Positions 1,776 to 40,322 of a stretch of 64,000 nt of DNA are shown piece by piece; within the stretch, counting starts at the first letter, position 1; each line of letters opens with the position of its first letter. This stretch comes from Bryobacteraceae bacterium (lineage in GTDB: Bacteria; Acidobacteriota; Terriglobia; Bryobacterales; Bryobacteraceae). The notes beneath the pieces were generated by a model that saw only the letters and a program-made list of their open reading frames with translations, ran no database searches and had not been told where the DNA came from. Position numbers and translations under genes: made by a program. The DNA is taken from assembly GCA_025056865.1 (NCBI GenBank), contig JANWVO010000032.1:1-64000 (forward strand), read 5' to 3'.

Positions 1776-2315
1776 GAAGAGGCAGAACAGGCAGAGAAAA
1801 GCCGCATTGGATCGCCTCATGGCGGGGGTCACTCGATACGAGCCAATCCAATGCGGCCCGCCCGGGCCGGGCGCGGGTCACGGCAGCGGTCGCGCCGGTT
1901 CCGGCTAAGCCCTTGTTCCCTTTCGCTCCTGATGAAGCTGCCGCTAACAGCTTTTCACCATCGGAGCCGGCGCACCGTTTCCCGTTCCCCAGGGAGAGAA
2001 CCCTGCAAGATTGCCAGCGGACGAATCAGGAAATGAAGCCGCAAAAAATAACCCTCTGCTGGGACCTGCCAGCGACTGAAACGAAATGGAAGAGATCTTG
2101 AACACCGGCTCCCGCAAGCACGACGTATCCAAACTCCACTTCGTCCTTTCACCGGCCCGTTCCAGCAGAGGGCAGGTCTACAGAGACTTCATCAATTCGC
2201 CTTTGAGTGTAGCAAACGGTTTGCCAATCACGCTGGCCTGCAAGTGCCTGATTTATAGCAGGCCGAATTCGTGTCCGGGCGCCTCGCTGCCCGCCTTTGT
2301 CCCAGGGGGTGTGGC
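1776..2315. other. 540-base gap with a long-armed inverted repeat, no supported gene
   Basis: The gap is less GC-rich than its surroundings. The only clear structure is a perfect 12-base inverted repeat, GCCGCATTGGAT at 1801-1812 and its complement at 1846-1857, around a 33-base centre. It lies 25 bases after the small Zn-ribbon gene and could end its transcript, but no T-run follows. Short ORFs here (for example 2086-2322) have no ribosome site or recognisable sequence. Confidence 0.5.
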
Positions 2316-29574: not shown

Positions 29575-30945
29575 TCAGCCGCCGTAGCGTTCCAGAAAAG
29601 CGGCCACGGTCATCGTGCCCTGGTAGAAATTCTCGAGCCGGAATTTTTCGTTGGGCGAGTGCAGTCCGTCATCAGGCAGGCCGAAGCCCATCATCACCGT
29701 GGGAATGCCGAGATGGCGGGCGAAGTCGCCGACGATGGGGACGCTGCCGCCGGAGCGGATGAAGACGGTGGGCTTGCCCATGATTTCGCGGAACGCTTCG
29801 GCGGCCGTATGGATGGCCGGGTGCTCCGGATTCACGACCACCGCCGGGCTGGCCGAGAGCCTGCGCACGGAGGTGCGGATGCCTTTGGGCGTGTTGGCGG
29901 CCACCCAGTCGGCGAAGAGGCGGAACATTTTCTCCGGATCCTGGTTTGGCACCATGCGCATGCTGACCTTGGCCACGGCCGCCGCGGGGATCACCGTCTT
30001 GGCTCCGGGCCCGCTGAAGCCGCCGCCGATGCCATGGACTTCGAGCGTGGGCCGCGACCAGATGCGTTCGAGCACCATGCGGTCCGGCTCGCCGATCAGG
30101 CAGGGCGCGCCGACCTCTTTTTCGAGGAACTCCTTTTCGGAAAATGGCAGGCTTTTCCAGGACTGGATTTCTGCGGGCGCCGGCTCGGCGACGTCATCAT
30201 AGAAGCCGGGGATGACGACGCGGCCGTCGGCATCCTTCGCTTTGGCGAGCAGCTCGATGAGTCCGAAGACGGCGTTGGGGGCGGCGCCGCCGTAGAGGCC
30301 CGAGTGGAGGTCGCGCGCGGGGCCACGGGCTTCCACTTCCATGTAGACCAGCCCGCGGAGACCGGTGCACAGCGTGGGCATGTCTTCGGCGTAAAGGGAA
30401 GTGTCGGAGACGAGCGCCGCGTCAGCCTTGAGTTTTTCGGCGTTGGCGGCGACATACTTCGCCACGCTGGCGCCGCCGACCTCCTCCTCGCCCTCGATGA
30501 GGAACCTGACGTTGACGGGCAGGCGGCCATGCACGGCGAACAGCGTTTCGATGGCCTTGATGTGCATGTACATCTGCCCCTTGTCGTCGGCCGAGCCGCG
30601 GGCATACAGGTTGCCGTTGCGCACGGCAGGCTCGAACGGCGGCGAGATCCACTCTTCGAGAGGATCGGGCGGCTGCACGTCGTAGTGGCCGTAGCAGAGC
30701 ACCGTGGGCTTGCCGGGGGCGTGGAGCCAATCGGCGTAGACGAGCGGGTGGCGCTCGGTAGGGATGATCTCCACGTTTTCGAGGCCGGCGCTGCGCAGGC
30801 GGTCTGCCACCCACTGTGCGGCGCGCGCCACGTCGGCGGCGTAGGCGGGATCGGTGGAAACCGAAGGAATGCGCAGGAACTCTTTCAGCTCTTCGAGGAA
30901 CCGTCCGGCATTGGAGCGGATGTAGTCGTTGGCGGCTTGCGACAT
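29575..30945 (-). CDS. M20 family dipeptidase (CNDP-like metallopeptidase)
   Basis: The 456-residue protein is a di-zinc amino/dipeptidase. Metal and catalytic blocks are VLCYGHYDVQPPDP (His and catalytic Asp), RGSADDKGQMYMH (bridging Asp), LIEGEEEVGG (catalytic and metal Glu) and GFGLPDDGLHSPNE (distal His). The dimerisation lid domain lies between residues ~190 and 320. There is no signal peptide, so it acts in the cytoplasm, probably on short peptides. TATAAT at 30975-30970 (minus) and GGAGA near the ATG support the start at 30945. Confidence 0.9.
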   Translation of the reverse strand: MSQAANDYIRSNAGRFLEELKEFLRIPSVSTDPAYAADVARAAQWVADRLRSAGLENVEIIPTERHPLVYADWLHAPGKPTVLCYGHYDVQPPDPLEEWISPPFEPAVRNGNLYARGSADDKGQMYMHIKAIETLFAVHGRLPVNVRFLIEGEEEVGGASVAKYVAANAEKLKADAALVSDTSLYAEDMPTLCTGLRGLVYMEVEARGPARDLHSGLYGGAAPNAVFGLIELLAKAKDADGRVVIPGFYDDVAEPAPAEIQSWKSLPFSEKEFLEKEVGAPCLIGEPDRMVLERIWSRPTLEVHGIGGGFSGPGAKTVIPAAAVAKVSMRMVPNQDPEKMFRLFADWVAANTPKGIRTSVRRLSASPAVVVNPEHPAIHTAAEAFREIMGKPTVFIRSGGSVPIVGDFARHLGIPTVMMGFGLPDDGLHSPNEKFRLENFYQGTMTVAAFLERYGG

Positions 30946-30983
30946 CGGGGTCTCCGTGGAAACCCCTTCATTATACGAAGCAG

Positions 30984-31023
30984 GAAAAAAGAAGGCCGGG
31001 CGGCCGCCCGAAGCCGCCCGGCC
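30984..31023 (-). terminator. Intrinsic terminator of an upstream minus-strand transcript
   Basis: On the minus strand an 11-bp perfect G/C stem (31013-31023 with 30994-31004) is followed by TTCTTTTTTCC. No protein gene on the minus strand ends here; the next minus gene upstream is more than 1 kb away and has its own direction and spacing. It therefore marks the 3' end of a separate, probably non-coding, transcript, and it insulates the dipeptidase promoter that follows. Confidence 0.8.
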
Positions 31024-31203
31024 CGAAGGGCTGCCGAGCTCGACCCGCACGCGAACCGCGCGGGCAGGAGCGCGCCACCGAAACCGCCCCTGCCCTGCCC
31101 CGCACGACGCGGTCCGCGAGCCTCACCCGGGGAGCACGCAGGCAGCCAGCCCAGCTCGGCACCAGAGTCAGGGCCGCGCACCGAAGTGCGCGGCGTCCCA
31201 TGC
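30984..31203 (-). ncRNA. Candidate structured small RNA, unidentified class (~220 nt)
   Basis: Between a TATTCT -10-like element (31217 down to 31212) and the strong terminator lies a hairpin-rich region with no ORF. Features on the minus strand are a perfect 9-bp hairpin with a TTCG tetraloop (31173-31194), a 9-bp long-range closing stem (31153-31161 with 31032-31040) enclosing ~112 bases with further G/C hairpins, and the terminator stem. An A/T-rich block sits further upstream. It lacks the RNase P, SRP and tmRNA core motifs I looked for, so it is either a divergent known RNA or a lineage-specific one. Confidence 0.5.
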
Positions 31204-31350
31204 CGGCGAGCAGAATAGCGGGCCGGGCCGCGCAGCCGGGTGGAAATCCGCGTCCATTTTGCTGAAAATAGGACGAATATTTTTTCGCATCCGCGGTGAC
31301 GGACGGCAGCCGCTTGCCCCGGGCGGCGGCGCCGCGGAAGAATAGGGGCC

Positions 31351-31992
31351 ATGCGCCGCCTGTTGGCATGCGTCCCCGTGCTTGTCCTTGCCGCCTGCGG
31401 CGGCGGCACGGCCCCGAAGCAGGAAGCGAAGAAGAAGGCCGCGCTGCCCGCAGAGATGCCTGCGGTGTGGAAAGCGCGGTTCGAGACTTCGAAGGGCGTC
31501 TTCGTGGTGGAAGTGCACCGGGACTGGGCCCCGCTGGGGGCGGAACGCTTCTGGAAGCTGGTGACGACGGGATTTTTCGACGACTCGCGCTTCTACCGGG
31601 TGCGGCCCGGCTTCATCGTGCAGTTTGGCATGGCCGGAGACCCGTCGCTGCAATCGCTGTGGAACTCGGCGCCGCTGGCCGATGATCCGGTGAAGCAGTC
31701 CAACACGCGCGGCACGGTGAGCTTTGCGCAGGCGGGCAAGGGGAGCCGGCGGACGCAGGTCTTTGTGAATCTGAAGGACAACCGCGCGCTGGACAAGGAG
31801 AGCTTTGCGCCATTCGGCAGGGTCACCGAGGGCATGGAAGTGCTGGAGAGCCTGTATGCCGGTTACGGCGAGTGGTCGCCGCCGGGGCGCGGGCCGGAGG
31901 CGGCGCGGATCCAGACGCAGGGCAACCGGTATCTGGACGCGCAGTTCCCGCGGCTGGACCGGATCCTGAGGGCGCGGGCAGTGGTGGAATAG
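31351..31992 (+). CDS. Cyclophilin-type peptidyl-prolyl isomerase, lipoprotein
   Basis: The 213-residue protein starts with a lipoprotein signal (MRRLLACVPVLVLAAC, lipid Cys16) followed by a charged linker. The cyclophilin domain from residue ~40 shows FETSKGVFVVEV, DDSRFYRVRPGFIVQFG (active-site Arg, Phe and Gln region) and TRGTVSFAQAG...QVFVNLKDN. It probably assists folding of exported proteins on the periplasmic side. The domain is a compact form with a C-terminal extension carrying IQTQGNRYLDAQFPRLD, the usual phrase for acidobacterial members. Confidence 0.88.
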   Translation: MRRLLACVPVLVLAACGGGTAPKQEAKKKAALPAEMPAVWKARFETSKGVFVVEVHRDWAPLGAERFWKLVTTGFFDDSRFYRVRPGFIVQFGMAGDPSLQSLWNSAPLADDPVKQSNTRGTVSFAQAGKGSRRTQVFVNLKDNRALDKESFAPFGRVTEGMEVLESLYAGYGEWSPPGRGPEAARIQTQGNRYLDAQFPRLDRILRARAVVE

Positions 31993-40130: not shown

Positions 40131-40322
40131 ATAGGAGCGTTCCTGCGAAACGCGTCACTGGCCTCCATAATTGATCCGATGCAGATGAATCTGGAGCCTG
40201 GCTCGAAACCAAGGCGCTGGTGAGCATGCTCCGCAAGGAGAAGCCTGAAGGCGCCCGGCGGGTTCCCCCCGTGGTTGACCGGGGTCGATTCCGAGGCTGG
40301 AACGGTTGTTGTGGTGCGCTCC
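40131..40322 (+). ncRNA. ssrS: 6S RNA
   Basis: This ~190-base RNA binds the sigma-70 RNA polymerase holoenzyme and mimics an open promoter. Bases 40219-40232 and 40238-40246 read TGGTGAGCATGCTCC and GAGAAGCCT, which I recall as near-identical to the apical part of E. coli 6S RNA. The ends pair as GGAGCG (40134-40139) with CGCTCC (40317-40322); the apex is a CTCC-GCAA-GGAG hairpin (40229-40240) inside a GGCGC/GCGCC stem (40213-40217, 40251-40255). A central A/T-richer bubble follows the closing stem on the 5' side, as expected. TATCCT precedes it and a T-rich stretch follows. The gap holds no ORF. Confidence 0.85.

Follow-up and report, generated by a model that had tools for sequence, protein, structure and literature searches.

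The window analysed here is a stretch of 64,000 nucleotides from a Bryobacteraceae genome (G000), which was compared with the genomes of four genus mates (G001 to G004). The element under study lies on the minus strand, between a gene for an M20-family peptidase (29575–30945, minus strand; Pfam PF01546 and PF07687) and a cyclophilin gene that begins at 31351 on the plus strand, and the locus lies between these two genes in all five genus genomes compared. The element ends, on the side of the M20 gene, which itself is outside the RNA gene, in a terminator made of a 13-bp stem with a 6-nt loop (30993–31024) followed by a T6 tract (30985–30990). Our own script found 37 T-runs with a length of at least five on both strands of the 64 kb, and this one has the most stable hairpin (-29.9 kcal/mol, the next reaching -18.8), which agrees with the strong terminator that an earlier sequence-only reading had described, and no protein gene precedes it on the minus strand within the intergenic region, as that reading had also held. 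The stem is kept in 5/5 genus genomes; a T-run is also present in G001 and G004 and has been lost in G002 and G003. No antiterminator partner for the terminator arm was seen by eye.

At the opposite end of the element the hexamer TATTCT, which had been pointed out before, is present at 31212–31217 (minus strand). It is a possible -10 element, with transcription perhaps starting near 31205. Counterparts found by eye read TATTTT in G001, TATTCT in G003 and TAGTCT in G004, that of G002 being degraded; a promoter consensus scan found none, TATTCT has no -35, and the hexamer is a weak promoter call. The neighbouring segment (31153–31210, minus strand) is a variable and poorly conserved 5′ domain, for which identity between G000 and G002–G004 is 34–37% over aligned letters, a rough figure because the alignment is poor. 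A hairpin domain nevertheless folds at the 5′ end of G000 and of G002–G004, each time from its own sequence and with z values from -0.11 to -2.15. In G000 this domain includes the 9-bp UUCG-capped hairpin (31173–31194) proposed earlier, with 9/9 pairs between arms 31173–31181 and 31186–31194, but this hairpin is not shared with the other four genomes, in which any UUCG within the 140 nt preceding the core is flanked by two pairs at most. On the plus strand, the cyclophilin promoter region (31260–31350) was seen by eye to contain a conserved TGAAAA...ATATTTT-like block and a GTGA in the genus, as well as TTGCCC about 17–18 nt before AAGAAT/AACAAT.

The minimum free energy of the stretch is -141 kcal/mol (z -2.67), and 0/200 shuffles were equally stable. 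In a background scan with 20 shuffles per segment, 24 of 512 segments of the same length had a z as low as the focal value of -2.22, and three were as stable. The single-sequence fold of this 77% G+C stretch is mildly unusual only, and the case for an RNA rests on conservation, not on folding energy. Such ordinary stability would fit a site without an RNA gene, the region being instead constrained at the DNA level by regulator sites, or being a G+C-rich palindromic element with hairpins that arise from composition. Its location between divergent genes would also suit this explanation, which we consider improbable in view of the comparative evidence.

The conserved RNA core (31029–31152, minus strand, from P1 to P1′), represented by model R1 and by alignment A3 of the five genus sequences, has a rod as its consensus, which is followed by the terminator stem. 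In this rod, P1 and P2 are separated by a loop of 5 nt on the 5′ side, and P2 and P3 by one of 7 nt; P3 is about 11 bp long and leads to a variable apical part. In P1, GGCUGCC (31141–31147) pairs with GGCAGCC (31035–31029), the consensus being GGCUGYC with GGCAGCC. Every cell of this helix is paired in 5/5 sequences, two pairs vary between C-G and U-G, and none is changed on both sides. The 3′ arm of P1 is the end of GAGCUCGGCAGCC (31041–31029), which at 13 nt is the longest invariant strand of the RNA. The 5′ arm of P2, GCUCCCCG (31128–31135), pairs with 31041–31038 and 31047–31044 (GCUC plus CUCC with GGAG plus GAGC); all cells are again paired, and two pairs show changes on both sides (U-A/C-G and C-G/G-C). 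P3, whose 5′ arm (31110–31120) pairs with 31058–31048, has 92.7% of its cells paired and both-side changes in three pairs. Over the whole of A3, 92.3% of 195 cells are paired, and sliding the partners cuts the share from 92% to 37–44%. In this sample of five sequences from two clades, which offers few independent compensatory events, 8/40 pairs are changed on both sides (shuffle mean 4.4; 2/500 shuffles reach 8), while the number of additional pair types falls within the shuffle range (94/500 reach it). The alifold energy has a z of -5.4 for the core and -6.9 when the terminator is included, and 0/300 column shuffles reach either value. Conservation with covariation in 5/5 genus genomes thus bears out the earlier claim that the minus strand carries a structured RNA.

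With regard to the strand, alifold z is even lower on the opposite one (-7.5 for the core, -8.9 including the terminator). Energy is therefore uninformative here, and this point would also favour constraint at the DNA level. Only the G-U count discriminates. P1 to P3 contain 10 G-U and no A-C cells, and all 40 pairs contain 16 G-U and 3 A-C; since G-U pairs would read as A-C mismatches on the other strand, the minus strand is taken as the pairing strand, pointing to a minus-strand transcript as the molecule to which the pairing belongs. The excess of G-U over A-C in P1 to P3, the compensatory changes and the z values of -5.4 to -6.9 are RNA signatures, and they speak against a purely DNA-level origin of the conservation. 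Within the core the alignment contains 4-nt and 1-nt indels, which disfavour a coding role, and the core is apparently not protein-coding.

The long-range closing stem of the sequence-only reading, UGCCGAGCU/AGCUCGGCA, is fully formed in G000 (31032–31040 with 31153–31161, 9/9 pairs) and is found in the same place in G001 with 8/9 pairs. G002 also offers 8/9 pairs, although two of them are G-U and the stem is shifted by 5 nt, whereas G003 and G004 have no more than 6/9 within 60 nt. As a picture of the conserved fold the structure drawn around this stem had to be given up, the relatives keeping instead the three-helix rod, which uses the same 3′ strand GAGCUCGGCAGCC. The closing stem shares its 3′ strand with P1/P2 and is thermodynamically preferred in G000. 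In single-sequence folding the pairs of P1 and P2 have mean probabilities of 0.08 and 0.06 in G000, 0.00 and 0.00 in G001, 0.99 and 0.07 in G002, 0.04 and 0.02 in G003, and 0.73 and 0.76 in G004, and imposing the conserved fold on single sequences costs 1.9–5.3 kcal/mol. On the comparative evidence we sided with P1/P2 as the probable fold over the closing stem.

Model R1, built from the same five sequences, finds the RNA in 5/5 genus genomes at 76–119 bits, with one match in G000. Core identity between G000 and G002–G004 amounts to 68–74% of aligned letters (11–13 gapped columns excluded), and identity at the 4-fold sites of the M20 gene to 47–49%; for G000 and G001 the two figures are 84% and 62%. 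At the 4-fold sites of the cyclophilin gene G000 is 37–61% identical to G002–G004, the value of 61% being that for G002, where the core stands at 74%. Among 195 other genomes of the family (200 in total, drawn from a larger group) R1 returned nothing above 24.4 bits. At E ≤1, 13/200 family genomes had a match, namely the five of the genus and eight others with 19.0–24.4 bits and E values of 0.06–0.84 per genome, which we rejected as homologues because such E values are at chance level. Six of these eight were aligned, and in five of the six several pairs were disrupted or the apex was shorter; the match at L032 (R1 model positions 22–110) keeps a P3-like helix and lacks P1. Laxer filters applied to 40 genomes gave nothing new above 23.3 bits. 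The first pass of the R1 genome search scores 17–150 of thousands of candidates, so that it could overlook a diverged homologue in other genera. In the M20–cyclophilin intergenic region, whose alignment had been proposed earlier as a check, covariation was found across the five genus genomes, and R1 reached at best 13.6 bits over 35 of 50 fetched non-genus loci with M20 and cyclophilin genes.

A DNA search of 61 genomes gave matches in 11, that is, in the five genus genomes and in six others over 27–44 nt only. Five of the six short matches correspond to the terminator stem, and R1 gave at most 19.5 bits or no match in those loci. A match in G014 (84% over query positions 114–156) was rejected as a homologue, as it lies inside a 389-aa open frame in a locus where R1 finds none. 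Secondary R1 hits within the genus were likewise set aside: the four of five that were examined are mutually dissimilar by blastn and lie inside long open frames, which are common in G+C-rich DNA, and the fifth is a G001 hit of 17.9 bits. A pattern scan of contigs gave a match in a planctomycete, where R1 found nothing; a phage search gave no match; and six partial matches to plasmids, covering 14–29% of the query with a best E of 1e-4, were taken as chance. Within its own genome the only other DNA match comprises 29 nt of a terminator-like stem, which, with the single R1 match, argues that the element is not a dispersed palindromic repeat. From these searches we infer that the RNA is restricted to the genus.

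Another possibility is that the RNA is a 5′ leader of the M20 gene, which would act as an aptamer or attenuator and use its terminator to stop transcription into the gene or let it pass. In 5/5 genus genomes this gene follows the element directly and in the same orientation, and the lack of a T-run in G002 and G003 could permit read-through. However, an exact TATAAT is found past the terminator in 5/5 genus genomes, ending 24–25 nt before the M20 ATG (24 nt in G000). Over 30 orthologous loci this motif is exact in 15 and matches in at least 5/6 positions in 21 (10 and 16, respectively, of the 25 non-genus loci), far above shuffled M20 upstream sequence, where the corresponding rates are 0.45% and 11%; the loci without it belong mostly to another family of the order. 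In addition, R1 detected no RNA in 18 non-genus M20 loci. Since M20 has its own TATAAT, a leader role is quite unlikely, and the RNA most likely adjoins a gene with its own promoter, although the loss of the T-run in G002 and G003 may leave some room for read-through into M20. In the M20 leader itself (30945–30970, minus strand), a hairpin around the likely ribosome-binding site appeared possible by eye, with GGGGU/ACCCC in G000, GAGGGA/UCCCUC in G003 and a weaker form in G002.

Elsewhere in the window, a second RNA candidate lies in an intergenic region at about 2043–2200 on the minus strand and is conserved better than the focal RNA. The fold of 2001–2227 has a z of -6.3 (20 shuffles), and DNA matches to the candidate were found in 17/40 genomes, two of them spanning only 22 and 37 nt; identity is 85–100% among the five genomes of the genus. 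All its Rfam matches are far below the cut-off. The helix CCCUCUGC/GCAGAGGG, with a span of 117–121 nt and a U-run after it, is present in 8/8 loci checked, and in 8/8 loci checked TGGC-N6-TTTGCT (GG-N10-GC) lies upstream (2211–2226, minus strand), an arrangement that we take to be the sigma-54 promoter layout. The candidate may represent a Bryobacteraceae small RNA transcribed under sigma-54. The same intergenic region contains, by eye, a hairpin GCCGCATTGGAT...ATCCAATGCGGC followed by TTTT at 1797–1857 on the minus strand.

For the focal RNA, the explanation towards which we lean, and which we hold to be somewhat likely, is a stand-alone, lineage-specific small RNA of one Bryobacteraceae genus that acts in trans; our confidence in the stand-alone reading is slightly lowered by the partial counterpart of the closing stem that is retained in G002. 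We infer a promoter at TATTCT, from which independent transcription would run leftward from near 31205 to the terminator at 30985 and produce an RNA of about 220 nt in G000, or about 260 nt in G002–G004 if the start is placed alike. The core would fold into the rod of P1, P2 and P3 with its asymmetric internal loops, the part supported by covariation, leaving the apical and 5′ domains free, and the M20 gene would stay under its own promoter without cis control by the RNA. In trans, the invariant GAGCUCGGCAGCC may, assisted by Hfq, pair with mRNAs, or else the rod with its loops may dock a protein. Hfq is present in 5/5 genus genomes, which makes Hfq-assisted pairing possible, and most intergenic RNAs of Hfq-bearing bacteria act by base pairing; for the latter reason we place base pairing slightly ahead of protein docking, the two being otherwise about equal. 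Mimicry of anti-Shine-Dalgarno or Shine-Dalgarno sequences was dropped as an idea, because CUCCUCC is engaged in the pairing of P2 and is missing from G000 and G001, and GGUGAGG reads AGCAAGG in G002.

The docking branch can also be framed as a protein-binding scaffold RNA, comparable to 6S, SRP or Y RNA and with a new partner, and as such it is the second branch of the preferred explanation and not a full alternative. The conserved part being a rod with conserved internal loops, and both ends being variable, would fit a scaffold. On the other hand, the Ro/TROVE protein was found in 0/5 genus genomes (1/14 control genomes, Deinobacterium, was positive), and the 6S and SRP models are unmatched at the site. 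We regard the scaffold as a tentative possibility. A further step, that the RNA represents a new family of rod RNAs which assembles with protein into a lineage-specific ribonucleoprotein of Bryobacteraceae, and that this family arose once the genus had separated from its relatives, is more speculative and appears doubtful. A young RNA gene may keep its rod while the ends drift. Table 1 of a 2022 review (PMC9029176) gives only four distinct annotated small RNAs in Acidobacteria, and an RNA present with covariation in 5/5 genomes of a genus contributes an example open to testing from a phylum that has received little study.

Comparison with known families upholds the earlier statement that the RNA could not be matched to RNase P, SRP or 6S RNA. 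The three models have no match at the focal site up to E 10, and G000 has its own copies elsewhere: RNase P class A (RF00010) at C59:13854–14259, bacterial SRP RNA (RF00169) at C37:2553–2650, and 6S RNA (RF00013), which had rightly been placed elsewhere in the window, at 40137–40320 on the plus strand with 44.4 bits, just below the gathering cut-off of 46.4. Each genus genome has one such 6S match away from the focal site (5/5), below the cut-off in G000 and G001 and above it in G002–G004. ARAGORN found no tmRNA in the window. At gathering scores there are no Rfam matches in the whole window or in the loci L002–L005 of the relatives, so that the RNA is not moved to a known family; at E ≤10, cmscan of 30900–31360 gave three chance-level matches, for example mir-1303 on the terminator stem, which were rejected. 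A literature search, with subscription papers mostly outside its range, found no title on this RNA.

Solibacter usitatus is a member of the Bryobacteraceae. The Solibacter-1 motif was described from this organism and is given no Rfam accession in the table of the report (PMC2864571), so it lies outside the Rfam comparison. The same table has Acido-1 (RF01686) and Acido-Lenti-1 (RF01687), two uncharacterised structured RNAs of acidobacteria, as not cis-regulatory (PMC2864571). Neither is represented among the Rfam matches to the focal stretch at E ≤10. Like the RNA predicted here, 6S RNA is a stand-alone RNA of about 180–220 nt that forms a long imperfect hairpin. 6S RNA has a large symmetric central bubble, however, whereas the internal loops of the focal RNA are one-sided, with 5–7 nt. 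Bacterial Y RNA is built from a closing helix, an asymmetric internal loop, a second helix and a free apical domain, all of which have their likeness in the focal RNA; identity with Y RNA was rejected because of the absence of Ro/TROVE in the genus. We regard the RNA as a candidate for a new family of small RNAs, and as such a known kind of thing.
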